DNA of 64,000 bases from Streptomyces venezuelae (GTDB lineage: Bacteria; Actinomycetota; Actinomycetes; Streptomycetales; Streptomycetaceae): positions 3,410,001 to 3,474,000 of the forward strand of contig NZ_CP029191.1 of assembly GCF_008642335.1 (NCBI RefSeq). Reading direction: 5' to 3'. Numbering within the stretch: the first letter of the stretch is position 1; each line of letters begins with the position of its first letter. The position numbers were made by a program, and so were the translations under genes. The notes under the pieces are model-generated. The model worked only from the letters and a program-made list of their open reading frames with translations. It was not told the origin of the DNA and did no database searches. This document shows, piece after piece, positions 26,849-58,319 of the stretch.

Positions 26849-26863
26849 CTGACGCCCCGTCAG
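26849..26863. promoter_or_regulatory. operator CTGACGCCCCGTCAG (perfect)
   Basis: A perfect 6-3-6 palindrome between divergent genes, 38 bases from the EthD-like start and 29 from the SDR start. The same sequence class recurs at five promoters between 47.9 and 58.3 kb. The size and symmetry fit a TetR-family repressor site. Confidence 0.75.
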
Positions 26864-26891
26864 CAAAACTGCCAGAGCCGGGAGGCGCCCC

Positions 26892-27686
26892 ATGCAGTCG
26901 TCGCTCCTCGAGGGAAAGACCGTCGTCGTCTCGGGCGTCGGCGCCGGGCTCGGCCACCAGGTCGCGGCGGCGGTGGTGCGCGACGGCGGCCACGTCGTGC
27001 TCGGGGCGCGCACGGAGGCGAACCTCGCCAAGACGGCCGCCGAGATCGACCCCGAGGGCGCCCGCGCCGCCTACAAGGTCACGGACATCACGGACGAGCG
27101 CCAATGCGAGGCCCTCGCGGAGCTTGCGGTGGAACGCTTCGGCGGGATCGACGCGGTCGTCCATGTCGCCGCCTGGGACAGCCACTTCGGCGGCCTGGAG
27201 GACGCGGACTTCGCCACCTGGGAGCAGGTCATCAACGTCAATCTCCTCGGCACCCTGCGCATGACGCGCGCCTGCCTGCCGGCGCTCAGGGAGCGGACCG
27301 GCGGCTCGGTGGTGTTCATCGGCACGCAGTCGGCGATCGCGGCGCCCTCACAGGTGCGGCAGGCGGCGTACGGCGCGTCGAAGGGCGCGCTGACCTCGGC
27401 GATGTACTCGCTGGCGCACGAGCTCGGCCCGGACCGCATCCGGGTCAACACCGTGCTGCCGGGCTGGATGTGGGGCCCGCCGGTCGAGGCGTACGTCCAG
27501 TTCACCGCGCACACCGAGGGCGTACCGGAGGACGAGGTCCTGGACCGCCTCGCGGCGCGCATGGCGCTGCCGGACCTGGCCACGGACGGGGACGTGGCGG
27601 ACGCGGTGGTGTTCCTCGCGTCGGACCGGGCGCGGTCGATCACGGGTCAGTCGCTGCTGGTCAACGCGGGGGAGATCATGCGGTAG
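26892..27686 (+). CDS. SDR-family oxidoreductase
   Basis: A 264-residue short-chain dehydrogenase. The nucleotide-binding motif is VVVSGVGAGLGHQ, the NAG-equivalent reads HVAAWDS, and the catalytic Tyr-x-x-x-Lys is YGASKGAL after a Ser-containing FIGTQSAIA. The VSGVGAGLG form with a small acidic pocket suggests NAD(H). ATG 26892 follows GGGAGG by seven bases. Shares the operator with the divergent EthD-like gene, so it is probably induced with the CoA-linked catabolic genes further right. Confidence 0.9.
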   Translation: MQSSLLEGKTVVVSGVGAGLGHQVAAAVVRDGGHVVLGARTEANLAKTAAEIDPEGARAAYKVTDITDERQCEALAELAVERFGGIDAVVHVAAWDSHFGGLEDADFATWEQVINVNLLGTLRMTRACLPALRERTGGSVVFIGTQSAIAAPSQVRQAAYGASKGALTSAMYSLAHELGPDRIRVNTVLPGWMWGPPVEAYVQFTAHTEGVPEDEVLDRLAARMALPDLATDGDVADAVVFLASDRARSITGQSLLVNAGEIMR

Positions 27687-27930
27687 CCGGGGCGGCGGGG
27701 ACGCGCGAGGGCCGTACGGGAGGCAACTTCCGTACGGCTTTCGTGCGTTCGGGGGCAGATGCGGTGCGGTCATGTACGTGAACGAAGGTCAGCTCGACGA
27801 ACGATTTTACTTGCTCTTGACTCAGCGACAGGTTGTCGTCGACTGGCGCCCGAACCCACGATGAGCGGGCACTTCTGGGCCGCTCTCGTCCCCATCGGCC
27901 CGTTCACCAGGCGGACCCCTGGAGGGCCAT

Positions 27931-29490
27931 ATGAACAGTCTCGACTGGGCGGTGCTCATCGGCCACTTCGGCGTGATGGTCGCCATCGGCGTGTGGTCCC
28001 ACAAGCGGGTCGACAACGTCAGCGACTTCTTCACGGCCGGCGGGAAGATGCCGTGGTGGCTGTCCGGCATCTCGCACCACATGTCGGGCTACAGCGCGGT
28101 GATGTTCACCGGGTACGCGGGCATCGCGTACACCTACGGCGTGACGTCCTTCGTCACCTGGTCCTTCCCCATCGCGCTCGGCATCGCCATCGGCGCCCGG
28201 CTCTTCGCGCCCCGGATCAACCGGCTGCGCTCACGCCTGCACGTGGCCTCGCCGCTGGAGTACCTGAAGAACCGCTACAACCTGCCGACCCAGCAGGCAC
28301 TCGCCTGGTCGGGCATGCTCCTGAAGATCGTGGACGTGGGCGCCAAGTGGGCGGCGATCGCGACGCTCTTGTCCGTCTTCACCGGCGTCTCCCTCAATCA
28401 GGGCATCCTCGTCACCGGCGTCATCACGGCGATCTACTGCACGATCGGCGGGCTCTGGGCCGACGCGCTGACGGAGCTCGGCCAGTTCATCATCCAGCTC
28501 CTCGCGGGCATCGCGATGTTCGTGGCGGTCGTCGCCGAGCTCGGGCCGCACGGCGGGTTCTTCGGCGTCTGGGACGAGCCCGAGCTCGCGGGCCACGGCA
28601 AGCCGCTGGTCGGCCCCTACGGCACGGTCTTCCTGCTCGCGTTCCTGTTCATCAAGCTCTTCGAGTACAACGGCGGCATGCTCAACCAGGCGCAGCGCTA
28701 CATGGCGACCGCCAACGCGAAGGAGGCGGCGCGCTCCGCGAGACTCTCCGCGATCCTGTGGCTGGTCTGGCCCGTCGTCCTCTTCTTCCCCATGTGGATG
28801 TCGCCGCTGCTGGTCGACGCGGAGAAGCCGGACGGTTCGGACGCGTACGCGCTGATGACGGAACAACTGCTTCCGCACGGCCTGTTGGGCCTGGTCATCG
28901 TCGGCTTCTTCTCGCACACCATGGCCATGTGCTCGTCCGACGCCAACGCGATCGCGGCGGTCTTCACGCGGGACGTGGCGCCCGCGTTCTCCGCGAAGGC
29001 GCGGGCCTGGACGGAGCGCAAGGGTCTCATCGCGGCCCGCCTCACCACGGTGGTCTTCCTCGGCCTGTCCATGGCGGTGGCCACGCAGGTCAACTCCCCC
29101 ACGTTCAAGGACATCATCACGGTCGTCATCAAGTGGGTGGCCGGCCTGATGGGACCGATCGCGATCCCGATGATGCTGGGCCTGCTGCGCACGTTCCGGA
29201 AGTCCGGTCCGACGGCGGCGCTCACCAGTTGGGCGGCGGGCCTTTTCGCCTTCTACCTGGTCAACTACCCGATCGACGAGGCGGTGTCGGGCGGGGTCGC
29301 CCTCGAGTACCAGGTGTCGATCCCGCTGGCCGTCTCCCTCGTCCTCTACGTCGTCATCGGCTACGTGAAGCCGGAGGACACGCCGGAGCGGGATGCTCTC
29401 ATCGAGCGGATCAATACGGACGGCGACGCGTCCGGTGCGGCGGTCGTGCCTGCGCCTTCGCAGCCGCGGGGGGATGCGGTGGCCCCGTAG
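27931..29490 (+). CDS. sodium:solute symporter (SSS family)
   Basis: A 519-residue transporter with about 12-13 membrane segments. The start DWAVLIGHFGVMVAIGVW, the unwound TM1 region GGKMPWWLSGISHHMSGYSAVMFTG split across two helices and the LFIKLFEYNGGMLNQAQRYM loop are of the sodium:solute symporter type, nearest to the sugar/organic-acid branch. The substrate is unknown. GGAGG lies before ATG 27931. The 244-base upstream stretch contains no gene; a CGACA-GGT-TGTCG inverted repeat (27826-27838) is a possible regulatory site. It converges on the MFS gene across two large palindromes. Confidence 0.88.
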   Translation: MNSLDWAVLIGHFGVMVAIGVWSHKRVDNVSDFFTAGGKMPWWLSGISHHMSGYSAVMFTGYAGIAYTYGVTSFVTWSFPIALGIAIGARLFAPRINRLRSRLHVASPLEYLKNRYNLPTQQALAWSGMLLKIVDVGAKWAAIATLLSVFTGVSLNQGILVTGVITAIYCTIGGLWADALTELGQFIIQLLAGIAMFVAVVAELGPHGGFFGVWDEPELAGHGKPLVGPYGTVFLLAFLFIKLFEYNGGMLNQAQRYMATANAKEAARSARLSAILWLVWPVVLFFPMWMSPLLVDAEKPDGSDAYALMTEQLLPHGLLGLVIVGFFSHTMAMCSSDANAIAAVFTRDVAPAFSAKARAWTERKGLIAARLTTVVFLGLSMAVATQVNSPTFKDIITVVIKWVAGLMGPIAIPMMLGLLRTFRKSGPTAALTSWAAGLFAFYLVNYPIDEAVSGGVALEYQVSIPLAVSLVLYVVIGYVKPEDTPERDALIERINTDGDASGAAVVPAPSQPRGDAVAP

Positions 29491-29513
29491 GGGGCGGGCG
29501 GACTGCGTCCCGT

Positions 29514-29632
29514 CAGGGGCGCGGGGAACTGCGCGCTCAGCACGCGAAAAGCCGCAGCCGCGTCTGCGGGGATCCCGGCAGACGCGACTGCGGCTTGTTT
29601 CCTGGTTGCTCGCGCAGTTCCCCGCGCCCCTG
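29514..29632. repeat. nested palindrome, copy 1
   Basis: A perfect 22-base inverted repeat (arms 29514-29535 and 29611-29632, beginning CAGGGGCGCGGGGAAC) encloses a second stem AAGCCGCAG...CTGCGGCTT around a GGATCC centre. It probably ends transcription from both sides. The outer arm is the common Streptomyces GGGGCGCGGGGAACTGCGCG dispersed element. Confidence 0.8.
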
Positions 29633-29660
29633 AAGCGGCTCCGCCGCTCAGGTGGCCTTA

Positions 29661-29774
29661 GGGGCGCGGGGAACTGCGCGGCCAGCCACAGAAAAGCCGC
29701 AGACGCGTCTGCCGGGATCCCGGCAAGCGCGGCTGCGGCTTGTTTTCGGTTGCTCGCGCAGTTCCCCGCGCCCC
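29661..29774. repeat. nested palindrome, copy 2
   Basis: The same structure repeated: arms 29661-29680 and 29755-29774 (GGGGCGCGGGGAACTGCGCG and its complement), with the inner AAAAGCCGCAG stem. The right arm touches the stop codon of the MFS gene. The two copies differ at several inner bases, with compensating changes in places. Confidence 0.8.
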
Positions 29775-31256
29775 TTACGGGGCTCCCACCCGCTCCGGTA
29801 CGGGCGCCGGGGCCGTCGAGGGCTTCGGAGCGTGGTGGGGCCTGAGGCCCAGGAGGGCCACGGTCACCACCAGGGCGAACGCGGCGCCCGCGATGGCGAA
29901 GCTCAGGGTGAACTGGCTCTCCTGGGGGAGGGCCGGCATACCCGCGGGAAGCGCAATCGTCTTCGACGCGAGCAGTGACGTGATCATCGCGCTGGCGACC
30001 GCGCTGCCCACGGAGCGGGAGATGGAGTTGATGCCGTTGGCGATGCCCGTCTGGTGGGCGGGCACGCTGGCGACGATGAGCGCGGGCATCGACGCGTACC
30101 CGAAGCTGATCGCGAGACCGATGACCATGCCCGCACCGATGACGGACGCACTCGTGTCGTGCGCCAGGGTCAGCCACGCGAAGCCGGCCACGCCGAACGC
30201 GGCGCCGACCGCGAGCGTGACGCGCGCGCCGATCCGGCGGACCAGGATCCCACCGAACTGGGCGGCGAGCAGCGAGACGATCGTCGTGGGCAGCAGGTAG
30301 ACGACGGAGGCGCCGAGCACCGACGCGCCGAACCCGTACCCGGCGATGTCCTCGGGCATCTGCACGAGGTACGAGACGCCGATGAACTGGGCGAACATCG
30401 CGAAGCCGAGGAGCAGTCCGGCCAGGTTGGTGAAGAGGACGGGGCGGTGGGCGAACATCTTCATGTCGACCATCGGCTCCTTGACCTTCAGTTCGGTCAG
30501 GACCCACACGCCTGCCATGACCACGGCGCCCGCGAAGGAGCCGAGGGTGCGGCCCGAGGTCCAGCCCCACTCGTGGCCCTGCGAGATCGGCAGGAGCAGC
30601 AGGACGAGGAGCAGCGCGAGCGTGCCCGCGCCGAGCCAGTCGGTGCGGCCGCCGGTCTTGGAGCGGGAGGCGGGGACGGCGAACACGACGCCGACGAGGG
30701 CGGCCACGGCGAGTACGACCGCCAGCCAGAACACGCGGTGGTAGTCCGGGTCCGAGCCCTGGGTCAGCAGGCCCGCGCCCACGAGGGCGAGGCCGCTGCC
30801 GAACGCGAGCGTGCCGCTGACCAGTGCCATCGCGCCGTGGAGCTTGGCGGGCCTGATCTCCTCGCGGAGCACGGAGAGCGCGAGCGGGAAGATCGCGGTG
30901 GCGGCACCCTGCATGATCCGGCCGACGATCAGCCAGGTCAGGGAGGTCGTCGTCGCGGCAAGCACCGAGCCCGCGATCATCACGAGCAGCACGCCGATCA
31001 GCGTGGGCTTCTTGCCGTGCTGGTCGCCGAAGCGGCCGAGCAGCGGGGTGAAGACGGCCGCGGAGAGCAGCGTGGCGGTGGTCACCCAGCTGACGCCCGC
31101 GGTCGTGGCGTCCAGGTCCTTCTGGATGATCGACAGGATCGGCACGACCAGGGTCTGCATCATCGAGACGACCATGGCGGCGAGCCCGAGGACCAGGACG
31201 ACGGCGGTCTGTCCGGTGGGTTTCGGCGGGGCCGCGTGCGGCTGTGCGTAGGACAC
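29775..31256 (-). CDS. MFS drug efflux transporter (DHA2, 14-TM type)
   Basis: A 493-residue transporter with 14 predicted membrane segments. Motif A appears as LLGRFGDQHGKKPTLIG near residue 72 and the antiporter motif C-like GSGLALVGAG near 155, both typical of DHA2 multidrug exporters. GTG 31256 is the only good start. It is divergent from a MarR gene with MarR-type inverted repeats in between, so the regulator almost surely controls this exporter, released by its substrate or a related phenolic compound. Confidence 0.9.
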   Translation of the reverse strand: MSYAQPHAAPPKPTGQTAVVLVLGLAAMVVSMMQTLVVPILSIIQKDLDATTAGVSWVTTATLLSAAVFTPLLGRFGDQHGKKPTLIGVLLVMIAGSVLAATTTSLTWLIVGRIMQGAATAIFPLALSVLREEIRPAKLHGAMALVSGTLAFGSGLALVGAGLLTQGSDPDYHRVFWLAVVLAVAALVGVVFAVPASRSKTGGRTDWLGAGTLALLLVLLLLPISQGHEWGWTSGRTLGSFAGAVVMAGVWVLTELKVKEPMVDMKMFAHRPVLFTNLAGLLLGFAMFAQFIGVSYLVQMPEDIAGYGFGASVLGASVVYLLPTTIVSLLAAQFGGILVRRIGARVTLAVGAAFGVAGFAWLTLAHDTSASVIGAGMVIGLAISFGYASMPALIVASVPAHQTGIANGINSISRSVGSAVASAMITSLLASKTIALPAGMPALPQESQFTLSFAIAGAAFALVVTVALLGLRPHHAPKPSTAPAPVPERVGAP

Positions 31257-46736: not shown

Positions 46737-47864
46737 TCACTCTCCCGCCGCCAGGCGAAACCGCGTCGTCCGGTGGACCGGATCCGTGTCGATCTTCGGG
46801 ATCACGTGCTCACCGATCAGCCGGATCGTGTTCTTCGTGTCCTCGGGCGAGATCCCGATCGGCAGCCCGAAGCTGAGCTGGTCCGCCCCGGCCTGCTCCC
46901 AGCGCTTGCACTGCGTGAGCACCTCGTCCGGGTCGCCGCAGATCATCAGCTCCTCGGCGATGAGCAGCTCGATGAGCTCCTCCGTGTACTCGGGCAGCAG
47001 CTCGGGCCACTCGGGAATGCCCTCGGGCCGCGGGAACGTGTCGTGGTAGCGGAAGAGAAGCGACTGCAGGTAGTTCAGACCGCCGCTGACCGCGATCTCG
47101 ACCGCCTTCTTGTGCGTCTCCGCGCAGATCGCCGTCGACGTCACCATGACGTTGTCGTTGACGAAGTCCCCGATCGCCTGCGCCTCCTTGACCGCCGTCT
47201 TGTACGACTCGACGACCCACTCCATGTCGGAGACCTTCTGCACGCTGAAGCCGAGGACCCCGAGCCCCTTCTTCCCTGCCATGGCGTACGAGGACGGGGA
47301 CCCGGCGGCGTACCACATCGCGGGGTGCGACTTCCCGTACGGCTTCGGGAGGATCTTGCGCGGGGGCAGCGACCAGTGCTTGCCCTGGAACCCCACGTAC
47401 TCGTCCTGCAGCCACATCTTGGGGAACTCGGCGATGGTCTCTTCCCAGATCTCCTTGGTGTGGTTCATGTCCGTGATGCCCGGCATGAAGCCGAGGATCT
47501 CGTGCGAACCGGCACCGCGCCCCGTGCCGAACTCGAACCGTCCCCGGGAGAGATGGTCGAGCATCGTCACCTTCTCCGCCACCTTCACGGGGTGGTTGAC
47601 GGGTGCGAGCGGGTTGAAGATGCCCGAGCCGAGGTGGATGCGGTCGGTGGCATGGGCGAGGTAGCCGAGGTAGACGTCGTTGGCGGAGAGGTGCGAGTAC
47701 TCCTCCAGGAAGTGGTGCTCGGACGCCCAGGCGTACTTGAACCCGGACTTGTCCGCCTCGATGACGTACTCGGTCTCCTCGATGAGCGCCTTGTGCTCCG
47801 CTTCGGGGTCGACCTTGGCCCGCTGGGCGGGCACGTATCCCTGAACAAAGAGACCGAATTCCAA
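46737..47864 (-). CDS. LLM-class flavin-dependent oxidoreductase 1
   Basis: A 375-residue bacterial-luciferase-like monooxygenase. Seen: MEFGLFVQGYVP at the N-terminus, WASEHHFLEEYSHLSAN, IHLGSGIFNPL and the DHLSRGRFEFGTGRGAGSHE loop. It is longer than the F420 group, and the EHHF motif is that of FMN-dependent monooxygenases. TTG 47864 is chosen since relatives begin MEFGLF and the operator at 47899-47915 then falls upstream; the frame runs on to ATG 47939, which would put the operator inside the gene. Two operators lie upstream. Confidence 0.85.
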   Translation of the reverse strand: MEFGLFVQGYVPAQRAKVDPEAEHKALIEETEYVIEADKSGFKYAWASEHHFLEEYSHLSANDVYLGYLAHATDRIHLGSGIFNPLAPVNHPVKVAEKVTMLDHLSRGRFEFGTGRGAGSHEILGFMPGITDMNHTKEIWEETIAEFPKMWLQDEYVGFQGKHWSLPPRKILPKPYGKSHPAMWYAAGSPSSYAMAGKKGLGVLGFSVQKVSDMEWVVESYKTAVKEAQAIGDFVNDNVMVTSTAICAETHKKAVEIAVSGGLNYLQSLLFRYHDTFPRPEGIPEWPELLPEYTEELIELLIAEELMICGDPDEVLTQCKRWEQAGADQLSFGLPIGISPEDTKNTIRLIGEHVIPKIDTDPVHRTTRFRLAAGE

Positions 47865-47898
47865 GGGAGGTTCACCGTCCTCGTGAGGTCTGACGGTT

Positions 47899-47915
47899 TC
47901 TGACGCTCCGTCAGA
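47899..47915. promoter_or_regulatory. operator TCTGACGCTCCGTCAGA (perfect)
   Basis: A perfect 7-3-7 palindrome 35 bases before the TTG start of LLM 1. Same class as the other CTGACG-N3-CGTCAG sites. Confidence 0.8.
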
Positions 47916-47962
47916 TTGCGATGGGGTCGACTGTTCCACCGCCCCGCCGGAGCGTCAATAGC

Positions 47963-47977
47963 TGACGCAACGTCAGG
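47963..47977. promoter_or_regulatory. operator CTGACGCAACGTCAG (perfect)
   Basis: A second perfect 6-3-6 palindrome, centred 63 bases from the previous one (six helical turns), suggesting cooperative binding or looping. Confidence 0.8.
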
Positions 47978-48004: not shown

Positions 48005-48790
48005 TCACACCACGCTGACCCCGGCCAGCCAGCCCCCGTCGATGACGAACGGCTGCCCCGTGATGTACGCCGAGTCGTCCCCGGTCAGGAACAGCGCCAG
48101 TGCGGCCACCTCCTGCGGCCGGCCGATCCGCCCGAGCGGCACGAGCTTCCTGTACAGCTCCGCGACCGCCTCGTCCGCGGCGCGTGGGTCGGCGTCCGGG
48201 TCGAGCTGCGCGGGGTTGGTCATGGGGGTGTCCACGGCCCCGGGGCACACCGCGTTCACGCGGATGTTCCGTCCCGCGAGCTCCAGCGCGGCGACGCGGG
48301 TGAGGCCGAGGATGGCGTGCTTCGTCGCCGCGTACGCGCCCACGTACGCCATGCCCGTCAGGGCCGTGTAGGAGGCGGTGTTCACGATCGTGCCGCCGCC
48401 GGCCGCGGCGATCTCGGGCGCGACCGTCCGAATGCCGAGGAAGCAGCCGATCTGGTTGACGCGGATGATCTGCTCGAACTCTTCGAGGGGGGTGCTGAGC
48501 AATTCGTTGAAGCGCAGGATTCCCGCGTTGTTGACGAGGCCGTCGACTGTGCCGAAGGCGTTCTTGGCGGCGGCCAGCGCCGCGCGCCAGTCGTCTTCGA
48601 CGCCGACGTCGAGGTGTACGTACGCCGCGGACTCCTCCCCCAGCTCCTTCGCCAAGGCCTCGCCCTGCTCGTCCAGCACGTCGGCTACGACGACGCGGGC
48701 GCCCTCCGCCACGAAGAGGCGCGCCTCCTGCTCGCCCTGTCCACGCGCGGCGCCGGTCACGATGACGACGCGGCCGTCCAGCTTGCCCAT
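48005..48790 (-). CDS. SDR-family oxidoreductase
   Basis: A 261-residue short-chain dehydrogenase: cofactor motif [14 protein letters not shown] (LVNNAGIL), catalytic YAATK preceded by the Ser in [10 protein letters not shown], and C-terminal [12 protein letters not shown]. The classical type uses NAD(P)H on secondary alcohols. ATG 48790 has AGGAG upstream. Eight bases separate it from LLM 2, so they form one operon. Confidence 0.92.
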
Positions 48791-48798: not shown

Positions 48799-49737
48799 CT
48801 ACGGTTGATTGAGGTGCGGGGCGACGTCGGTGGCGAAGGCCGCCATCTGGTCGGTGAGTTCGGTACGGCTGCGGCTGCGGAAGCGCACCTGGATCTGGTC
48901 GACGCCCATCGCGGCGTAGGCGCGGAGGGACTCGGCGAGGGCGTCGGGCTCTCCGCTGAGCGTGCGGCGGCCGACGGGCCATCGGGGCTTTCCGACGTAC
49001 AGCGGCTCGGTGATGGCGCCGATGGTGAAGGGCCCGGCGATCCCGGCCTCCTCGCGCAGACTCTTGATCCTCGCGATCTGCGCGGGCAGCTTGTCGCGCG
49101 GGTCGCCCTGGGGCAGCCACCCGTCGGCGCGGGTCGCTGCGCGGCGTACGGCGGCGGGGGACGAGCCGCCCACCCAGAGGGGTACGCGGGTCTGGGCGGG
49201 TCGCGGCAGCTGCCCCAAGTCCTTGAAGGCGAAGGTCTCCCCGGAGTACTCGGGGTACTCCTCGGGCCCCAGGGCCGCCCTCAGGGCGTCGATCGTCTCG
49301 TCGAGGAGGGGCCCGCGCCGAGCGAAGTCGACGCCGAGCGCCTCGAACTCCTCCTGTACGTGCCCCGCCCCCACTCCGAGGATCAGCCTTCCTCCGCTGA
49401 GGTGGTCGAGGGTGGCGTACTGCTTGGCGGAGAGGAGGGGGTGACGGAGGCCGACGATGGCGACGTGGCTCATCAGGCGGACGTTCTCGGTGACTGCGGC
49501 GAGGTGGGCGAGGGTGGCGACGGGGTCGTACCAGACGGTGCTCATGGCTTCGGCGAGGTGGCGGGGGATGGCGATGTGGTCGCAGGTGGCGATGTAGGCG
49601 AAGCCGGTGCGGTCGGCGACGCGGGCGAGCTCGACGAGGTCGGCGGCTCCGGCTCCCGCTTCCCACCCCTCCGCATACATGGAACTCTGCGACTGAACGG
49701 GCAACTGCATCCCGTACTCCACGACCTCACCACTCAC
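48799..49737 (-). CDS. LLM-class oxidoreductase 2
   Basis: A 312-residue luciferase-like enzyme. Seen: EYGMQLPVQSQSS, DHIAIPRHLAEAMSTVWYDP, ENVRLMSHVAIVGLRHP and DHLSGGRLILGVGAGH. The DHIAIP form and the length point to the F420-dependent group. Start GTG 49737 is uncertain; GTG 49719 (EYGMQ immediately after) is an alternative. The two operators at 49764-49821 lie directly upstream in either case. First gene of the LLM 2 / SDR operon. Confidence 0.85.
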   Translation of the reverse strand: MSGEVVEYGMQLPVQSQSSMYAEGWEAGAGAADLVELARVADRTGFAYIATCDHIAIPRHLAEAMSTVWYDPVATLAHLAAVTENVRLMSHVAIVGLRHPLLSAKQYATLDHLSGGRLILGVGAGHVQEEFEALGVDFARRGPLLDETIDALRAALGPEEYPEYSGETFAFKDLGQLPRPAQTRVPLWVGGSSPAAVRRAATRADGWLPQGDPRDKLPAQIARIKSLREEAGIAGPFTIGAITEPLYVGKPRWPVGRRTLSGEPDALAESLRAYAAMGVDQIQVRFRSRSRTELTDQMAAFATDVAPHLNQP

Positions 49738-49763: not shown

Positions 49764-49778
49764 CTGACGAGCCGTCAC
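49764..49778. promoter_or_regulatory. degenerate operator CTGACGAGCCGTCAC
   Basis: One mismatch from the palindrome (last base). It lies 41 bases upstream of a perfect site. Confidence 0.55.
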
Positions 49779-49804: not shown

Positions 49805-49821
49805 CCTGACGCCCCGTCAGG
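49805..49821. promoter_or_regulatory. operator CCTGACGCCCCGTCAGG (perfect)
   Basis: A perfect 7-3-7 palindrome in front of LLM 2. The core is identical to the site at 26849. Confidence 0.8.
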
Positions 49822-50031: not shown

Positions 50032-50043
50032 GCGCGGGGCCGC

Positions 50044-50486: not shown

Positions 50487-51725
50487 CTACGCGCCGGGCC
50501 AGAGGCCTGCTTCCGTGAGGCCCAAAAGAGCAACCGCATTGCCCCGCACGATGCGCTCCACCACCTCCCGCGACAGGTGGGACATCTGGGACTCCCCGAC
50601 CTCCCGGGACTTGGGCCACGTCGAGTCGGAGTGCGGGTAGTCCGTCTCGTACAGGACGTTCCCGACTCCGATCGAGTCGAGGTTCCGCAGTCCGAACGCG
50701 TCGTCGAAGAAGCAGCCGAAGACGTGTTCGGAGAAGAGCTCGGAGGGCGGGCGCGTCACCTTGTCCGCCACCCCGCCCCACCCCCGGTTCTCCTCCCACA
50801 CCACGTCCGCCCGCTCCAGGATGTAGGGGATCCAGCCGATCTGGCCCTCCGCGTACATGACCTTCAGGTTCGGGAAGCGTTCGAACTTGCCGCTCATCAG
50901 CCAGTCGACCATCGAGAAGCAGCAGTTGGCGAACGTGATCGTGGACCCGACGGCGGGCGGCGCGTCCGCCGAGGTCGACGGCATCTTGCTGGAGGAGCCG
51001 ATGTGCATGGCGACGACCGTGCCGGTCTCGTCGCAGGCGCGCAGGAAGGGATCCCACGCGTCGGTGTGGATGGAGGGAAGGCCGAGGTGAGGCGGGATTT
51101 CGGAGAAGGCGACCGCTCGTACGCCCCGTGCCGCGTTGCGCCGTACCTCCGCGGCGGCGAGCTCCGCGTCCCAGAGCGGAATAAGAGTGAGCGGTATGAG
51201 ACGGCCGGCCGCCTCCGGCCCGCACCACTCCTCCACCATCCAGTCGTTGTACGCGCGGACCGACAGGAGCGCGAGCTCCCGGTCCTTGGCCTCCGTGAAC
51301 GTCTGCCCGCAGAACCGCGGGAACGTGGGGAAGCAGAGCGCGGACTGGACGTGGTTGACGTCCATGTCCGCGAGGCGGTCCGGCACGCTGAACGACCCCG
51401 GCCGCATCTGCTCGTACGTGATGACCTCGAGTTTGATCTCGTCCCTGGAGTAGCCGACCGACGTGTCGAGGCGGGTCAGAGGGCGGTGCAGGTCCTCGTA
51501 GATCCACCAGTCGCCGATGGGGCCTTCTTCCCCCTTCTCCCCCATGACCGGGGCGAACTTTCCGCCCAGGAAGGACATCGACCGCAAGGGGGCGCGCACG
51601 ATCCGGGGGCCGCGGTCCTGGTACTTCGACGGGAGCCGGTCCCGCCAGACGTGTGGAGGCTCGACCGTGTGGTCGTCCACCGAGATGATCTTCGGGAAGG
51701 TCTCCGGGCTCTCCATGGTCTCCAT
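50487..51725 (-). CDS. amidohydrolase-2 family protein
   Basis: A 412-residue metal-dependent hydrolase or decarboxylase. The N-terminal metal motif is SVDDHTVEPP (a DxHxxE form). VVAMHIGSSSKMPS and the C-terminal YETDYPHSDSTWP complete the site. Relatives include ACMSD-like decarboxylases and hydrolases of aromatic or alicyclic degradation. ATG 51725 is taken; ATG 51716 has better ribosome-site spacing and is possible. A perfect operator lies 21 bases upstream, and afsR is divergent. Confidence 0.9.
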   Translation of the reverse strand: METMESPETFPKIISVDDHTVEPPHVWRDRLPSKYQDRGPRIVRAPLRSMSFLGGKFAPVMGEKGEEGPIGDWWIYEDLHRPLTRLDTSVGYSRDEIKLEVITYEQMRPGSFSVPDRLADMDVNHVQSALCFPTFPRFCGQTFTEAKDRELALLSVRAYNDWMVEEWCGPEAAGRLIPLTLIPLWDAELAAAEVRRNAARGVRAVAFSEIPPHLGLPSIHTDAWDPFLRACDETGTVVAMHIGSSSKMPSTSADAPPAVGSTITFANCCFSMVDWLMSGKFERFPNLKVMYAEGQIGWIPYILERADVVWEENRGWGGVADKVTRPPSELFSEHVFGCFFDDAFGLRNLDSIGVGNVLYETDYPHSDSTWPKSREVGESQMSHLSREVVERIVRGNAVALLGLTEAGLWPGA

Positions 51726-51745: not shown

Positions 51746-51760
51746 CTGACGACCCGTCAG
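51746..51760. promoter_or_regulatory. operator CTGACGACCCGTCAG (perfect)
   Basis: A perfect 6-3-6 palindrome 21 bases before the amidohydrolase start and 258 bases before afsR. Confidence 0.8.
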
Positions 51761-52017: not shown

Positions 52018-54996
52018 ATGGTCGATGTACCGCGAGTACCGGAGCAGCGGCGTCCGGCCTCGGGGAACACCCCCGAGGGGCGGACCGAGGGGCATCCCCC
52101 CGAGGTACCGGCGTCGCGCTTCAGCGTGCTCGGACCGGTGCGCGCGTGGCTCGGCCCGGACCAGCTCAACACCGGTTCGCCCCAGCAGAGGGCGCTGCTC
52201 GCGGCCCTGCTGCTGCGGGACGGCCGTACGGCCACGGCCTCGGAGCTGATCGACGCCCTGTGGGGCGAGGAGCCGCCGTCGCAGGCCCTGGCGGCGGTGC
52301 GTACGTACGCGTCCCGGCTCCGCAAGGTGCTGCCTCCGGGCGTCCTCGTCAGCGAGTCCGGGGGGTACGCGGTCCAGGTCGCCGACGGCGCACTCGACCT
52401 CGCCGTGGCGGAGGACCTGTGGTCGGCGGCGGAGAAGGCCCGCGGCGCGGGTGATCTCTGCCAGGCGCGGACGCTGGTGAACAAGGCGCTCGGCCTCTGG
52501 GACGGCGAACCCCTCGCCAACGTCCCGGGTCCGTACGCGGACACGCAGCGCACCCGCCTCGACGAGTGGCGCCTCCAGCTCCTGGAGACCCGCCTGGACA
52601 TGGACCTGGAACAGGGCTGCCACGCGGAGGCCGTCTCGGAGCTGACGGCTCTGACCGCGGCGCACCCGCTGCGGGAGCGGCTGCGCGAGCTGCTGATGCT
52701 GGCGCTCTACCGCAGCGGGCGCCAGGCGGAGGCCCTCGCGGTCTACGCGGACACGCGCCGTCTGCTCGCCGACGAGCTCGGCGTCGACCCGAGGCCCGGC
52801 CTCAAGGAGCTCCAGCAGCGCATCCTCCAGGCCGACCCCGGCCTCGCGGAGCCGTCCACGCCCGCGCAGGAACCGGCGACGACGGTGGTGCGCCCCGCGC
52901 AGCTCCCGGCGACGGTCCCCGACTTCACGGGCCGCGCGTCCTTCGTCGACGAACTCAGCGACATCCTGTCGACCGCCGAGGGCCGCGTGATGGCGGTCTC
53001 CGCGCTCGCGGGCATCGGCGGCGTCGGCAAGACGACCCTCGCGGTGCATGTCGCTCATGTGGCGCGCGCCCACTTCCCCGACGGCCAGCTGTACGTGGAC
53101 CTCCAGGGCGCGGGCGCACGCGTCGCCGAGCCGGAGACGGTCCTCGGCGCGTTCCTGCGCGCCCTCGGCACGGCCGACTCGGCGATCCCGGACTCCCTGG
53201 AGGAGCGGGCCGCGCTGTACCGGTCGGTCCTCGACGGCCGCCGGGTCCTCGTCCTCCTCGACAACGCGCGCGACGCGGCGCAGGTCCGGCCGCTGCTGCC
53301 CGGCATGGAGGGCTGCGCGGCGCTGGTCACGAGCCGTGTCCGCATGGTCGACCTGGCGGGCGCGCACCTCGTGGACCTGGACGTGATGTCCCCCGAGGAG
53401 GCGCTGCTCCTCTTCACCCGCATCGTCGGCGAGGAGCGGGTCACCGCGGAGCGGGAGGCGGCGCTCGACGTGGTGGCGGCGTGCGGGTTCCTGCCGCTCG
53501 CCATCCGCATCGCGGCGTCCCGGCTCGCGGCGCGCCGCACGTGGACGGTCTCCACGCTCGCGGCGAAGCTGGCGGACGAGCGGCGGCGTCTGGACGAGCT
53601 CCAGGCGGGCGACCTCGCGGTCAAGGCGACGTTCGAACTCGGCTACGGCCAGCTGGAGCCGGCCCAGGCCCGCGCCTTCCGCCTCCTCGGCCTGGCGGAC
53701 GGCCCCGACCTGTCCCTCGCGGCGGCCGCGGCGGTCCTGGACCTCCCCCTGGACGAGACCGAGGACGTCCTGGAGTCCCTGGTCGACACGTCCCTGGTCG
53801 AATCCGCGGCACCGGGCCGCTACCGCTACCACGATCTCGTACGCCTCTACGCCCGCGCCTGCGCCGAACGCGACGAACAGCCCCCCGGCGAGCGGGACGC
53901 GGCGATGTCCCGCCTCCTCGACTTCTACCTGGCCTCCGCGGCCCGGGTCTACGCGATCGAACGCCCCGGCGACCGCACGGTGGACCACCTGGAGCCCACG
54001 GAACACGCGGGCCAGGACTTCACCGACGACACGAAGGCCCTGGACTGGCTGCACTCCGAGGCGGCGTGCATCCTGGCGTGCGTGCAGCAGTCGCTGGGGG
54101 CGGGGATGCTGCGGCGGGCGGTCTCGCTGCTGCTGGCCTCCAAGGACCTCGCCGAGTCCGGCGCCAGCTCGCTGCGGTACGAGTCGGTCACCTGCGCGGC
54201 GCGCGACGCGGCGGCCGCGCTGGGCGACTCCCTCGCCGAGGGACAGGCCCGGGTCGCCCTCGCCCAAGTCCTCAGCAAGGTCGGCCACTTCGACAGGGCG
54301 TCGGAGGAACTGGCCCGCGGCGTGGAGCTCGGCTCCGTGTCCAAGGATCCGTGGACCATAAGCAACGCGTTGAACGAGCAGGGCATCATCGCGTACTGCG
54401 TCAACCAGCAGGCCGCGAGCGAGGCCTATCTGCACAAGGCCGTCGAGGCGTTCCGCGCGGACGCCAACCGGGCCGGCGAGGCCAGCGCCCTGTGCAATCT
54501 GTCGCGCGTGCTCGCCGCGAACGGCCGGACGCCGCAGGCCATCGACCTCGCCCGGCAGGGCATGTCCATCTACGACGACCTGGGCTACAACTTCCGGCTC
54601 GCCAACGCCCGGAGCGCGCTGGGCATCGCCCTCAGCGACGCCGGTCAGCACACGGAGGCGCTGGTCGAACTCAACGAAGCCCTGCGGGTGTTCGCCGAGG
54701 TCCGCCAGCGCCTGTGGGAGGGGACGACGCACTTCCGCATCGCCCAGGTGCACCTCTCGGCCCGCCGCCCGGCCCAGGCGGCGCAACATGCGGAGCAGGC
54801 GCTCAGCACCGGCTGTGTCGGAGGGGACTGGATGCGTGCAAACGCTCTGACCCTTTTGGGCAGGTCTCTCGACACCATCGGGCAGGTCGACCGTGCGCGC
54901 GCCTGCTGGCGTGAGGCCCTCACCATCTACGAGGCTTCAAGGGCCCCCGAAGCCGAAGAGGTCAGGGCGCTCCTCGCCCCGGTGGCCGCGGCCTAG
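52018..54996 (+). CDS. afsR: AfsR, SARP-type global regulator of secondary metabolism
   Basis: A 992-residue regulator, matching the 993-residue S. coelicolor AfsR. Order: SARP winged helix (about 35-110, FSVLGPVRAWLGPDQL), bacterial transcriptional activation domain (120-280), NB-ARC ATPase with GIGGVGKTTLA (about 330-340) and C-terminal TPRs (700-980). In S. coelicolor AfsK phosphorylates AfsR, which then activates afsS and so antibiotic production. ATG 52018 follows AGGGGGAG. The next gene is afsS and an AfsR-type box stands in front of it. The upstream 258 bases carry imperfect GGCTGCGG repeats. Confidence 0.95.
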   Translation: MVDVPRVPEQRRPASGNTPEGRTEGHPPEVPASRFSVLGPVRAWLGPDQLNTGSPQQRALLAALLLRDGRTATASELIDALWGEEPPSQALAAVRTYASRLRKVLPPGVLVSESGGYAVQVADGALDLAVAEDLWSAAEKARGAGDLCQARTLVNKALGLWDGEPLANVPGPYADTQRTRLDEWRLQLLETRLDMDLEQGCHAEAVSELTALTAAHPLRERLRELLMLALYRSGRQAEALAVYADTRRLLADELGVDPRPGLKELQQRILQADPGLAEPSTPAQEPATTVVRPAQLPATVPDFTGRASFVDELSDILSTAEGRVMAVSALAGIGGVGKTTLAVHVAHVARAHFPDGQLYVDLQGAGARVAEPETVLGAFLRALGTADSAIPDSLEERAALYRSVLDGRRVLVLLDNARDAAQVRPLLPGMEGCAALVTSRVRMVDLAGAHLVDLDVMSPEEALLLFTRIVGEERVTAEREAALDVVAACGFLPLAIRIAASRLAARRTWTVSTLAAKLADERRRLDELQAGDLAVKATFELGYGQLEPAQARAFRLLGLADGPDLSLAAAAAVLDLPLDETEDVLESLVDTSLVESAAPGRYRYHDLVRLYARACAERDEQPPGERDAAMSRLLDFYLASAARVYAIERPGDRTVDHLEPTEHAGQDFTDDTKALDWLHSEAACILACVQQSLGAGMLRRAVSLLLASKDLAESGASSLRYESVTCAARDAAAALGDSLAEGQARVALAQVLSKVGHFDRASEELARGVELGSVSKDPWTISNALNEQGIIAYCVNQQAASEAYLHKAVEAFRADANRAGEASALCNLSRVLAANGRTPQAIDLARQGMSIYDDLGYNFRLANARSALGIALSDAGQHTEALVELNEALRVFAEVRQRLWEGTTHFRIAQVHLSARRPAQAAQHAEQALSTGCVGGDWMRANALTLLGRSLDTIGQVDRARACWREALTIYEASRAPEAEEVRALLAPVAAA

Positions 54997-55051: not shown

Positions 55052-55069
55052 CGTTCATCGAACGTTTAT
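55052..55069 (+). promoter_or_regulatory. AfsR box in the afsS promoter
   Basis: Two direct heptamers, CGTTCAT (55052-55058) and CGTTTAT (55063-55069), start 11 bases apart, the helical spacing used by SARP proteins. In S. coelicolor AfsR binds repeats of this kind overlapping the afsS -35 region. The distance to the afsS start (173 bases) implies a long leader. Confidence 0.8.
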
Positions 55070-55155
55070 GGGCGGCTGCCACTCTCTACTCACGATCCGT
55101 CGCGTCGGGGGGCAGACGGGTCGCTTGGGGCCCCACAGATAGGGTGAGCGGCCCA

Positions 55156-55203
55156 AGAACGCCCGTTCGGCGACCCTCGGGGGAGTTGCCGAACGGGCGT
55201 TCT
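55156..55203 (+). promoter_or_regulatory. 16-bp stem-loop in the afsS leader
   Basis: A perfect stem, AGAACGCCCGTTCGGC / GCCGAACGGGCGTTCT, with a 16-base loop, 38 bases before the afsS start and downstream of the AfsR box. It has terminator strength but no U-tract. It may end afsR read-through or control afsS. Confidence 0.7.
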
Positions 55204-55241
55204 GCCCCAGCGAACCGTCAGAACTCAGGAGGTTGTCCGCC

Positions 55242-55424
55242 ATGAGCGACGCCACGAGGAACCAGAACATCACCACCATGGGTGACGGCCACATTCCCGC
55301 GCCGCCGAAGGACGGCGGCGCCACCACGCAGGGCGACGGGCACATCCCCGCGCCTCCCAAGGACGGCGGCGCCACCACGCAGGGCGACGGGCACATCCCC
55401 GCCCCTCCCGCCAAGGACGCCTAA
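55242..55424 (+). CDS. afsS: AfsS, small activator of antibiotic production
   Basis: A 60-residue protein with the AfsS hallmark: the unit TxGDGHIPAPPKDGGAT repeated (GDGHIPAPP at about 18, 35 and 52). AfsS acts downstream of AfsR by an unresolved mechanism. It has no signal peptide and no predicted fold. ATG 55242 has AGGAGG with an eight-base spacer; TTG 55233 would abut the ribosome site and is rejected. The repeats are nearly identical at DNA level (51-base period). Confidence 0.93.
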   Translation: MSDATRNQNITTMGDGHIPAPPKDGGATTQGDGHIPAPPKDGGATTQGDGHIPAPPAKDA

Positions 55425-55444
55425 AGACTTTTTTCCCGACGGGG

Positions 55445-55485
55445 GTCGGCCGCGGCGGCGCGGAGGGGGAGCCGTCGCGGCCGAC
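55445..55485 (+). terminator. terminator after afsS
   Basis: GTCGGCCGCG / CGCGGCCGAC, ten base pairs, preceded by a run of six T just after the stop codon. Confidence 0.6.
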
Positions 55486-55620
55486 GCATGTCCGGTCGGA
55501 CACGGGGCACAGGCCAGGCAGATGGCGCCGCGCCCGAACGATCAGCGGAATCGAACATTCAGCCGCACCCCTCGCTAGGGTCACGTGGCGTTGGATGTCC
55601 GCCTCTTCAGAGGAGCAGGA

Positions 55621-55788
55621 ATGACACGTACCAAGAAGGTCTTCGTCGCTTTGGCCTTAGCTGCCGCCACGGCTGGTGCAGCAGCGTCTCCGGCACTCGC
55701 CGACAGCCACATACCGGCTCCGCCGCGGGACGGTCACACCGCCTCCGTCCAGGGCGACAGCCACATCCCCTCGCCGCCGGGGAACTGA
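55621..55788 (+). CDS. secreted peptide with AfsS-type HIP motifs
   Basis: A 55-residue protein. Residues 1-27 are a clear Sec signal peptide (MTRTKKVFVALALAAATAG, cleavage after ALA). The mature 28 residues begin DSHIPAPPRDGHT and end GDSHIPSPPGN, two copies of the motif that defines AfsS. ATG 55621 has AGGAGCAGGA upstream. Leu13 is a TTA codon, so translation should need bldA. A TAGGGT -10-like element lies 45 bases upstream. It has its own terminator. I know of no function; an extracellular counterpart or competitor of AfsS is a hypothesis. Confidence 0.8.
   Translation: MTRTKKVFVALALAAATAGAAASPALADSHIPAPPRDGHTASVQGDSHIPSPPGN
55657..55659 (+). promoter_or_regulatory. rare TTA codon in the HIP peptide
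   Basis: Codon 13, within the signal peptide, is TTA. The only one seen in the right-hand part of the window. Confidence 0.75.
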
Positions 55789-55792
55789 CGGA

Positions 55793-55835
55793 CGGCCGCC
55801 GCCGAGGCGTGGGGCGCCGGTGTCGGCGGCGGCCG
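55793..55835 (+). terminator. terminator after the HIP peptide gene
   Basis: A perfect 13-base-pair stem (CGGCCGCCGCCGA / TCGGCGGCGGCCG) with a 17-base loop starting five bases after the stop codon. Confidence 0.75.
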
Positions 55836-56246
55836 CGGTGTGCGCGCCGGCGTCGCGGCTCCCCTCCACGTACCGGTGCGCACACGCGCCCCCACGGCAC
55901 CGGGGCACGCGGGAGTGAGCCCCGGTTGGACAGGCCGCAAGGGCGTGGGCCGGGGCTGTGCGAGGTCGGCGGTACGGCCCCGGCCGCGGGTCACTGGGAC
56001 GACCCTGCTGGTCCGGGGTCTCGGGACCGAAGAGCGATGGACACGACGAGCGATGGTCACTCGCGAGGAGCGCCACCGCAGGGTCTCCTCCCTTGTGAGG
56101 CTAGGCCCGCCCCGCCCCCGACGGAACCCACGGCACCGCACCAGGGTTCCTGCGGCAACCGACGTAGGGAAGAGCTCCCTTGTGCGACGGACCCGGCCGC
56201 GAATATCCGTGGACACGCCCGCCCCGCGCAGCGAATAGTGCCGCCC
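55836..56246 (+). other. 411-base intergenic stretch, no gene seen
   Basis: Open frames here (for example 55840-56238) have the wrong codon composition: Arg/Pro-rich with no ribosome site and no recognisable domain. No repeat or operator of the local regulon was seen. Confidence 0.5.
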
Positions 56247-56642
56247 ATGACTTCTCTCGTGCGTCACCTCACGTTCGATGCCCACGACGCCTACCGCCAG
56301 GGGGCCTTCTGGGCCGAGGTCCTCGGCGGACGCCTCTCCGACGACGACTCTCCCGGCGACCCGGAGGCCCTGGTGGAGGCCGACGGCATCGCCCTGCTCT
56401 TCGTGACCGTGCCGGACGCCAAGTCCGTCAAGAACCGGCTGCACGTCGACCTCCAGCCGCAGGACCGCACCCGCGACGAGGAGGTCGAGCGGCTCCTCGC
56501 GCTCGGCGCGAAGCTGCACGAGGACCACCGCAGGCCGAACGGCCGCGGCTGGGTCACCCTCACCGACCTGGAGGGCAACGAGTTCTGCGTGGAGTGCGGA
56601 GCCGCCGAGCGCGAGGCCCTGATCGCCGCCGGCGCCAGCTAG
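56247..56642 (+). CDS. VOC-superfamily (glyoxalase-like) protein
   Basis: A 131-residue single vicinal-oxygen-chelate module with a paired beta-alpha-beta-beta-beta layout: LTFDAHDAYRQGAFWAEVLGG at the N-terminus and LTDLEGNEFCVECG at the C-terminus, the Glu of which would bind metal. The ribosome site of ATG 56247 is weak. Members range from glyoxalases to antibiotic-binding proteins. It stands between the afsS region and the FadD3-like gene (convergent). Confidence 0.82.
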   Translation: MTSLVRHLTFDAHDAYRQGAFWAEVLGGRLSDDDSPGDPEALVEADGIALLFVTVPDAKSVKNRLHVDLQPQDRTRDEEVERLLALGAKLHEDHRRPNGRGWVTLTDLEGNEFCVECGAAEREALIAAGAS

Positions 56643-56657
56643 CCGCGGCCCTGCCCC

Positions 56658-58256
56658 TCAGCTCCCCCTCAGCTCCCCCTTCACCACCTTCCCGCTCGCG
56701 TTCCTCGGCAGCTCCGTCACGAACTCGACGGTCCTCGGCACCTTGTAGTTCGCCATCTCACGCCGCGCCCACGCGATCAGGTCGTCCGCCGTGACCACGG
56801 ATCCGGGGCGCCGCACCACGTACGCCTTGCCGACCTCGCCGAGCCTCGGGTCGGGCACCCCGATCACCGCGACGTCGGCGACGGCCGGGTGCACGCCGAG
56901 GAGCTGCTCTATCTCGGCGGGGTAGGCGTTGAACCCGCCGACGATGAACATGTCCTTGATGCGGTCCGTGATGCGGAGGTTGCCCGCCGTGTCGAGGACG
57001 CCGACGTCGCCCGTCCGCAGCCAGCCGTCGGGCGTCAGGCACCGTGCCGTCTCCTCCGGGTCCTCGAAGTAGCCCCGCATGACGTGGTGGCCGCGGACGA
57101 GCACTTCGCCGGGGTGGCCCGGCGGGAGCGGTTCGCCGCCGGGGGCCGCCACCCGTACCTCCGTGTCGGGGATGGCCCGGCCCGACGTCGCCGCGATGAC
57201 GTCGACCGGGTCGCCCCGTCGGCACATCGTGACGATGCCGCTCGCCTCCGAAAGGCCGTACGCCGTGAGGACGGTGGCGATGCGCAGCTCCGCCCGCAGC
57301 CGTTCCACGAGCTGCAGCGGCACCACCGCCGCGCCGGTCACGACGAGCCGCAGCGCGGAGAGGTCGTGCTGGTCGCGGGACGGGTGGTCGAGGATCGACT
57401 GGTGCAGGGTGGGCGGGCCCGGCAGGACGGAGATGCGTTCGGCGGCGACGTTGGCGAGGACCGTGTCCACGTTGAAGACCGGCTGCGGCACCATCGTCGC
57501 GCCCCGCATCAGGCACGCGATGATCCCCGCCTTGTAGCCGAAGGTGTGGAAGAACGGGTTCACGATCAGATAGCGGTCGCCCTCGCGCAACCCGGCCAGG
57601 TCGCTCCATATGTCGTAGCAGCGCAGGGTCTGGGCGTGGGTGATGACGGCGCCCTTGGGGCGGCCGGTCGTGCCCGAGGTGAAGACGATGTCGGAGGGCG
57701 CGGAGCCCTCGACGGACGCCGCGCGCGTACGGACCGCGTCCGCCGACACCCTGTCGCCGCTCGCCAGGAAGTCCTTCCAGGTGCGGAAGTCCTGCGGCGC
57801 GTCGTCGGCGAGCACGACGACCTGCTCCAGGTGCGGCAGCCCCGGCAGCGGTCCTTCGCCCGGCCCGTCGGCGGCGGCGCGGCGCAGCGAGGCGACGTAC
57901 GACGTACCGAGGAACGTGCCCGTGACGAAGAGGACCTTGGCGCGGCTGCGGGCGAGGACGTACGCCGCCTCCGTGCCCTTGAAGCGGGTGTTGAGGGGGA
58001 CGAGGACCGCGCCCGCGCCGACGGCGCCGAGCGCGGAGACGATCCAGTCGAGGGTGTTCGGCGCCCAGACGGCGACGCGGTCGCCGGGCTCGACGCCGTT
58101 GGCCATGCAGGCGGCCGCCGCGTGCTCGACGCGCTCGCCCAGTTCCGCGTACGAGATGCGGGTGCGGCCCTCGACGACCGCCTCCCGCGTGCCGTACCGC
58201 TCGGCGGCCGCCCGTACGAGTCCCGGGATGCTGCCCCACTCCAGGTCGCCGCGCAT
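56658..58256 (-). CDS. FadD3-like acyl-CoA synthetase
   Basis: A 532-residue AMP-forming CoA ligase. The phosphate loop is FTSGTTGRPKGAV, followed by NPFFHTFGYKAGI, TAYGLSEASG, DGWLRTGDVG and the catalytic lysine in NASGKVVKGELR. The FFHTFGYKAGI and LPGPPTLHQSILDHP segments closely resemble FadD3, the ligase that activates the last two steroid rings in actinobacteria. The substrate here may be a similar alicyclic propionate. ATG 58256 follows GGGAGAGG. Divergent from the thiolase gene with two operators between. Confidence 0.9.
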   Translation of the reverse strand: MRGDLEWGSIPGLVRAAAERYGTREAVVEGRTRISYAELGERVEHAAAACMANGVEPGDRVAVWAPNTLDWIVSALGAVGAGAVLVPLNTRFKGTEAAYVLARSRAKVLFVTGTFLGTSYVASLRRAAADGPGEGPLPGLPHLEQVVVLADDAPQDFRTWKDFLASGDRVSADAVRTRAASVEGSAPSDIVFTSGTTGRPKGAVITHAQTLRCYDIWSDLAGLREGDRYLIVNPFFHTFGYKAGIIACLMRGATMVPQPVFNVDTVLANVAAERISVLPGPPTLHQSILDHPSRDQHDLSALRLVVTGAAVVPLQLVERLRAELRIATVLTAYGLSEASGIVTMCRRGDPVDVIAATSGRAIPDTEVRVAAPGGEPLPPGHPGEVLVRGHHVMRGYFEDPEETARCLTPDGWLRTGDVGVLDTAGNLRITDRIKDMFIVGGFNAYPAEIEQLLGVHPAVADVAVIGVPDPRLGEVGKAYVVRRPGSVVTADDLIAWARREMANYKVPRTVEFVTELPRNASGKVVKGELRGS

Positions 58257-58277
58257 CGCATGCACCTCTCCCGCTAG

Positions 58278-58292
58278 CTGACTAACCGTCAG
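58278..58292. promoter_or_regulatory. degenerate operator CTGACTAACCGTCAG
   Basis: One mismatch from the palindrome (left arm), 22 bases before the ligase start. Confidence 0.6.
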
Positions 58293-58304
58293 ATTAGCTG
58301 TAGC

Positions 58305-58319
58305 CTGACGCGCTGTCAG
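58305..58319. promoter_or_regulatory. degenerate operator CTGACGCGCTGTCAG
   Basis: One mismatch from the palindrome (right arm), 42 bases before the thiolase start. Its centre is 27 bases from the site to its left. Confidence 0.6.

Follow-up and report, generated by a model that had tools for sequence, protein, structure and literature searches.

A CTGACG-N3-CGTCAG palindrome as the predicted operator of a TetR-type regulator of acyl-CoA catabolic genes in Streptomyces venezuelae

Palindromic sites and genes at the locus

We analysed a stretch of 64,000 nucleotides from Streptomyces venezuelae (assembly GCF_008642335.1, contig NZ_CP029191.1, positions 3,410,001 to 3,474,000), here referred to as the window, in which the palindrome CTGACG-N3-CGTCAG, scanned as CTGACGNNNCGTCAG, recurs in promoter regions. 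The source genome, G000, is 8.05 Mb in size and consists of one contig, and window coordinates are used unless genome coordinates are stated. The sites and surrounding genes are listed in Table 1, together with the gene for a TetR-family protein, located just beyond the window, that is very probably the regulator acting through the palindrome.

The window contained eight full sites, five of which were perfect, while three had one mismatch. The first-pass annotation had listed nine sites, the ninth of which was merely the half-site CTGACG at 47890; its coordinates were all within one base, and three have been shifted by one (now 47900, 47962, and 49806). Its placement of the sites in promoters was confirmed, as all eight were intergenic, and their distance to the nearest start potentially served was 22 to 69 bp, except for the outer LLM1 site at 128 bp. 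A match with 2 mismatches at 14885 fell inside a gene. With up to 2 mismatches allowed, the window total was 9 against a chance mean of 8.58, and because this count equals chance, the signal is confined to sites with 0 or 1 mismatch; scanning with 2 mismatches was consequently dropped as evidence.

In 40 rounds of first-order Markov resampling applied to the non-coding DNA of a 164-kb region, sites with 0 or 1 mismatch arose at a mean of 0.1 and never more than once per round, and perfect sites did not arise at all, as compared to 17 and 9, respectively, observed in the same region. Eleven control stretches (220 kb) contained no perfect and 3 one-mismatch sites, all three of which were coding. 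Throughout the genome, 13 perfect sites were identified among 103 with at most one mismatch, whereas the reversed pattern gave 19 such sites, none of which was perfect. The consensus was roughly AT-CTGACG-N3-CGTCAG-AT, with A and T favoured in the flanks at positions -2, -1, and +16, and mismatches gathered, in either half-site, at the outermost position and at the two inner ones. The spacer was 3 bp throughout, except for one 8-bp pair in G000, and its bases were variable.

Table 1. Predicted operators and genes, in window coordinates except for the TetR gene
Feature	Position	Strand	Remarks
281-aa protein	25966..26811	-	no Pfam family
Predicted operator, perfect	26849..26863		between 25966-26811 (-) and SDR1 (+)
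Short-chain dehydrogenase SDR1	26892..27686	+	
Luciferase-like monooxygenase LLM1	46737..47834	-	
Predicted operator, perfect	47900..47914		upstream of LLM1; half-site CTGACG at 47890
Second predicted operator of LLM1, perfect	47962..47976		upstream of LLM1
Short-chain dehydrogenase SDR2	48005..48790	-	
LLM2, F420-dependent type	48799..49737	-	TIGR03619 over cut-off
Predicted operator, 1 mismatch	49764..49778		upstream of LLM2-SDR2 operon
Predicted operator, perfect	49806..49820		upstream of LLM2-SDR2 operon
Amidohydrolase_2	50487..51716	-	nearest solved relatives DitZ, PtmU3
Predicted operator, perfect	51746..51760		between amidohydrolase (-) and afsR-like gene (+)
AfsR-like SARP regulator	52138..54996	+	BTAD, NB-ARC, TPR
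FadD3-family acyl-CoA ligase	56658..58256	-	NF005801 over cut-off
Predicted operator, 1 mismatch	58278..58292		FadD3/thiolase divergent promoter
Predicted operator, 1 mismatch	58305..58319		FadD3/thiolase divergent promoter
Lipid-transfer/thiolase-like protein	58361..59512	+	PRK07855 over cut-off
ChsH2-type DUF35 protein	59582..60037	+	
Enoyl-CoA hydratase	60034..60834	+	
AfsK-like Ser/Thr kinase with PQQ repeats	60853..63252	-	synteny marker
Candidate regulator, TetR_N + TetR_C_38, 215 aa	G000:C1:3474413-3475060	+	413 bp past window end

Extent of the regulon in the source genome

A regulon of TetR type defined by the palindrome is well supported, but the five promoters originally assigned to it are an understatement. 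Nine of the 13 perfect sites were located between genome positions 3,436,849 and 3,499,856, a span of 63 kb that runs from window position 26849 to 26 kb past the window end. This cluster contained 17 sites with at most one mismatch (9 perfect, 8 one-mismatch), all 17 of which were non-coding, in 11 promoter regions. The first five belong to the 281-aa protein/SDR1, LLM1, LLM2-SDR2, the amidohydrolase, and FadD3/thiolase, and are followed by those of an acyl-CoA dehydrogenase/thiolase, DUF35/FMO, an ATP-grasp CoA ligase, a flavin reductase, SDR/cyclase, and acyl-CoA dehydrogenases/AMP ligase. The label "EthD-like" previously given to the 281-aa protein was not supported by any Pfam match at E-values up to 0.1. 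Paired sites were found at six promoter regions of G000, which suggests tighter control.

There were also distal members. Three of the 4 remaining perfect sites front a DUF35/lipid-transfer thiolase pair, a luciferase-like monooxygenase, and an amidohydrolase, while the fourth, at genome position 2303385, precedes a MaoC gene by about 150 bp. Among the distal one-mismatch sites, which beyond 3.19 Mb cover mismatch positions 0, 4, and 5, 18 of the 40 classified were coding and are read as background, so that not all are regulon members. It was also noted that two one-mismatch sites lie 33 bp apart at G000:C1:173-220 (L014, L015), within 220 bp of the contig start; these may belong to terminal palindromes and not be operators.

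A candidate regulator just beyond the window

The window contained no match to TetR_N, in agreement with the claim that no TetR gene lies within it. The candidate gene starts 413 bp past the window end. It was the sole TetR_N match between 3.394 and 3.528 Mb, out of 112 such matches in G000, and is one gene away from the AfsK-like kinase, with the AfsR-like gene nearby. From its place beside afsK, we infer that the protein is the ortholog of S. coelicolor SCO4421, which lies near afsK (SCO4423) according to passages of PMC3878966. The same passages describe SCO4421 as whiA-dependent on the basis of array data, with activity in spore chains but none in vegetative hyphae.

The protein has the features of the TetR family, namely an N-terminal helix-turn-helix, helices throughout, and an EthR-like fold in the predicted model (pLDDT 93). 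A match to it was obtained in 292 of the 293 genomes sampled from the order. The segment ATFYQYF of the recognition region was invariant in 40 aligned homologs, although this partly reflects selection for the scan-derived loci, as TFYQYFAD was a search peptide. Of the 14 class-wide relatives (L123-L136), 6 (L125, L127, L128, L131, L132, L133) had a site that touched the beginning of the TetR match or was within 40 bp of it, as did L183 and L188. In all 30 Streptomyces loci inspected around the TetR gene, a 2-mismatch site overlapped its ATG. Autoregulation in Streptomyces from this site is not claimed, since the overlapping coding start is conserved anyway.

A Streptomyces paralog with nearly the same recognition region (RARTSPATFYQYFAD) was identified in five loci (L192, L199, L201, L202, L204), none of which had the motif nearby except for one site 9 kb off in L204. 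Furthermore, three TetR_N matches in G000 occurred as mirrored pairs with equal scores (G000:C1 156605-166084 and 8026509-8035989), suggestive of a large inverted repeat close to the ends of the chromosome.

Conservation of the sites among Streptomyces

The palindrome was present in the same orthologous promoters of three other Streptomyces genomes, G001, G174, and G311, wherever the region was fetched, despite differences in the intervening genes and in N3. The G174 region extends from the LLM1 operon to about the ADH gene, thus covering the promoter regions except for the first one and the final two, and the promoter corresponding to site 26849 carried the palindrome in G001 and G311. The peculiar CTGACT/CTGTCAG pair at FadD3/thiolase was retained in both copies in G001 and G311 and in one copy in G174. 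In G001 and G311, LLM2 follows directly after the amidohydrolase and has no site of its own. All 57 sites in the four regions were centred 11 to 140 bp upstream of a gene start and none was coding, so that the objection of an equal density in coding DNA fails for the cluster; the one-mismatch class genome-wide includes coding background. In 4 of 4 genomes examined, the intergenic DNA that holds the operator at 51746-51760 also lies upstream of the afsR-like gene; afsR is a regulator of antibiotic production.

Distal perfect sites also recurred, at orthologs of a polyketide_cyc2 gene (L066), the second amidohydrolase (L067, L074), the DUF35 gene (L070, L075), and the distal LLM (L082). In the 30 distal loci examined, each represented by the first-listed site of its genome, 5 sites fell in coding DNA and 11 were more than 300 bp from any start. 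The perfect motif was found in 61 of 61 Streptomyces genomes, with 2 to 32 sites each against 0 to 3 for the reversed control. Perfect sites were concentrated within 40 kb of the TetR gene in G000 (9 of 13, binomial p 7e-16), G001 (6 of 15, 2e-9), and G174 (7 of 14, 2e-11).

Co-occurrence of the TetR gene and the motif across Actinomycetes

To a sample of 197 Actinomycetes genomes, in which TetR presence was defined by a match at an E-value of up to 1e-25, we applied a threshold of at least 6 perfect sites. It was reached by 26 of 36 genomes with the TetR and 1 of 161 without it, and by 8 of 15 versus 1 of 161 when Streptomyces and family f15 were removed. In family f16, the corresponding values were 7 of 7 and 1 of 5. 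It was also noted that the TetR homolog in L134 (genome G370) contained an in-frame TGA stop; this genome has no perfect site, and the protein is possibly a lost regulator.

A contig scan for relatives of the TetR yielded 45 loci from Actinomadura, Acidimicrobiia, Microthrixaceae, a Myxococcota metagenome-assembled genome (MAG), and others. In 21 of these, a site with at most one mismatch was found (16 perfect and 29 one-mismatch sites in total), although the loci were fetched by TetR similarity, so that the presence of the TetR beside the motif there is by design and counts less. Control palindromes with six unrelated halves gave 0 to 2 matches in total; the self-palindromic halves CGATCG, CAGCTG, and CTCGAG gave 35, 5, and 27, and were judged to be unfair controls. 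In most of the 13 loci that were read closely, several neighbours were homologs of genes in the Streptomyces regulon, but this was not the case in the Sporichthya locus L172. Three loci with TetR relatives (L182, L197, L206) came from MAG records titled Bifidobacterium breve with 58% to 69% GC, a species label that looks wrong.

Five Sporichthya-like genomes of family f15 (G352, G374, G391, G406, G421; loci L137-L171), all with the TetR, contained 109 to 218 perfect copies each, scattered over 4.3 to 5.5 Mb. In 359 kb of G421, composed of stretches picked because they bear sites, 14 of the 30 perfect sites were coding, 8 overlapped stop codons, and 8 were otherwise non-coding. The 8 stop overlaps use the TGA or TCA of the motif itself, and 4 of them serve both convergent genes. 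The single informative alignment between G391 and G421 had sites at different places. The f15 counts were rejected as support for a promoter regulon after the positions had been read, which is why the co-occurrence statistics are also given without this family.

Sterol-type genes and KstR boxes

One distal site, at genome position 2343712, is located between genes for CYP125 (matching CYP125 structures at E 1e-150) and FadA5 (steroid 3-ketoacyl-CoA thiolase equivalog, 695 bits against a cut-off of 515), so that these two markers of sterol catabolism are present in G000. A FadD3 equivalog is also present. The match to the IpdE2 model, 198 of 450 bits, was far below the cut-off. CYP125 was found in 45 of 61 Streptomyces genomes, with a median of 15 perfect sites per genome as compared to 5.5 in the 16 genomes without it. 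Just upstream of CYP125, a site with at most one mismatch was present in 28 of 30 fetched Streptomyces loci, and the remaining two had CTGATGGTCCATCAG at the same place. In many of the 30 loci (L278-L307), two further elements stood between CYP125 and FadA5, a ACTAGTACGCGTTCTAGT palindrome, which is conserved, and a repeat resembling GCAAGGGTCTTGC.

A KstR-like box, with one mismatch to TnnAACnnGTTnnA, was located within 80 bp of the site in 27 of the 30 CYP125 loci. Exact KstR boxes were found within 63 bp of 3 of 13 distal sites in G000 (2303385, 2312263, and 4091639), the windows of which had been preselected as promoter-like, against a background of 1 per 220 kb; none was found in the four cluster regions. 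G000 also encodes a KstR-like TetR protein (L023:9593-10372; KstR structures at E 1e-40), whose gene is preceded, at about 145 bp, by an exact KstR box and lies 5.5 kb from the distal operator at 2317246. Judged from these sequence patterns, there seems to be a two-repressor arrangement at the side-chain genes, with a second TetR layered onto KstR, and the SCO4421-type TetR alone at the cluster.

Interpretation and alternative explanations

We hold it to be very likely that the palindrome is the operator of a SCO4421-type TetR that controls the acyl-CoA catabolic cluster of about 63 kb and a distal tier with KstR boxes. The sites, their positions and conservation, the co-occurrence with the TetR gene, and the adjacency to KstR boxes were computed, and from them we infer DNA binding, repression, an inducer, and a substrate. 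Most likely, a TetR dimer would sit on the cluster promoters and block transcription of genes for acyl-CoA ligases, acyl-CoA dehydrogenases, thiolase/ChsH2-like pairs, and hydratases, as well as luciferase-like and FMO monooxygenases, a flavin reductase, and hydrolases. Repression would be well suited to sites centred 11 to 140 bp before the starts. The block would be lifted when a pathway intermediate binds the TetR, probably an acyl-CoA by analogy to KstR and KstR2, the effectors of which are cited in a passage of PMC9782250. In the distal tier (CYP125/FadA5, MaoC, acyl-CoA dehydrogenases), where the operator lies beside KstR-like boxes, two TetR repressors may gate a sterol-type oxidation of side chains. 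It is speculation, from the whiA and spore-chain data on SCO4421, that the TetR may hold the cluster off in spores.

Several observations weigh against this interpretation. Deletion of SCO4421 gave no overt phenotype according to a passage of PMC3878966, and the TetR gene itself lacks a site with at most one mismatch in the Streptomyces genomes and loci inspected (G000, G001, G174, G311, and L108-L122). TetR and site counts were uncorrelated in family f20 (p 0.38), G480 contained 10 sites with no TetR match in a genome that is 68% complete, and G361 and G370 had a TetR match but no sites. Among the 45 scan loci, which were fetched with a TetR of the Sporichthya type, 24 contained no site with at most one mismatch. 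Finally, the mismatch profile in family f15 resembles that of operators, yet the positions are, anomalously, not promoter-like.

That another regulator binds the palindrome, either a different TetR or the product of an AraC-family gene at about 79.6 kb, with the SCO4421-type TetR being a mere neighbour, is in our judgement improbable. The lack of a close site at the Streptomyces gene, the number of TetR_N matches in G000, and the paralog with its nearly identical recognition region would all fit such a scenario. However, the candidate is the only TetR_N match in its neighbourhood, eight relatives have a site at the start of their own TetR gene, and the paralog loci have no sites apart from the distant one in L204. 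Moreover, scans for the motif that did not use the TetR as query gave matches in the vicinity of this TetR, on the same contig within 6 kb in G351, and at tens of kb in G445 and G464. The AraC-family regulator was rejected, because orthologs of the AraC/MFS pair are missing from the G174 region as fetched, where the motif regulon is nevertheless kept. A non-regulatory repeat, a terminator, or a structural signal is scarcely credible: the scattered Sporichthya-type copies, which often overlap stop codons, speak for it, but the sites in the Streptomyces regions all lie just upstream of starts, with variation in the spacer bases but not in the two half-sites or the distance of 3 bp between them.

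It is a good deal harder to decide on the pathway, and the substrate may be a sterol side chain or another cyclic isoprenoid. There is a real, if lesser, chance that the regulator is right and that the pathway serves another cyclic or branched isoprenoid (diterpenoid-type, or alicyclic acids), with CYP125 and FadA5 borrowed. The amidohydrolase is closest to DitZ and PtmU3, of which PtmU3 is a diterpenoid-pathway protein, and the second AMP ligase is nearest to cyclohexanecarboxylate-CoA ligase, although far below the cut-off. The absence of exact KstR boxes from the four cluster regions points in the same direction, as does a passage of PMC4810484 on a survey of 57 Streptomyces genomes, in 55 of which no steroid pathway was found. 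The FadD3 and FadA5 equivalogs, CYP125, the lipid-transfer thiolases, the ChsH2-type proteins, and the adjacency to KstR boxes argue instead for a sterol.

If the SCO4421-type TetR is the regulator, predicted targets and an exact operator are now proposed for a protein whose targets were unknown. The predicted double TetR control of CYP125, in a genus mostly scored as lacking steroid pathways, makes the role of the sterol-type genes testable, and the operator upstream of afsR is a possible link from catabolism to antibiotic control. A wider scenario, which we regard as rather unlikely, is that of an old actinobacterial TetR-operator module that became a second lock on KstR promoters in Streptomyces, where it may touch the afsR promoter via 51746, and a genome-wide factor at more than 100 sites, many at the 3' ends of genes, in Sporichthya-type genomes.

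Comparison with known systems

No description of CTGACG-N3-CGTCAG as a TetR operator was found in the open-access papers searched, which were seen mostly as titles and abstracts. SCO4421 has the same location of a TetR gene close to afsK, but the passages of PMC3878966 give no operator or regulon. Sco4385, described in passages of PMC12093943, is likewise a TetR, encoded next to a CoA ligase and an enoyl-CoA hydratase in S. coelicolor, but in another cluster (sco4383-sco4386), for which a genuine operator is not established there. EthR provided the nearest solved fold (TM 0.76 to 0.88) and the best weak sequence match to the candidate, although the identity in the structural alignment was only about 17%.

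KstR2, with a 14-bp operator, AnCAAGnnCTTGnT (PMC3068626), may resemble the proposed system as a TetR repressor over a FadD3-type ligase and acyl-CoA dehydrogenases, in the second tier of steroid catabolism. Its operator had no exact match in the four regions, and KstR2 was not matched to the candidate by sequence or among the best 50 folds. The candidate also differs from KstR, the repressor of cholesterol catabolism that binds the box TnnAACnnGTTnnA (PMC1995591), in the operator sequence and in its C-terminal domain, which is TetR_C_38 and not TetR_C_20. A search of PDB sequences with the candidate matched EthR and others, but no KstR at an E-value of 0.001, and G000 has a separate KstR-like protein; exact KstR boxes are missing from the four cluster regions. 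What the 2 systems would have in common is a regulator of the TetR family and a regulon of many promoters, with a palindromic operator in the promoters of genes for acyl-CoA catabolism and for the sterol side chain, CYP125 among them.

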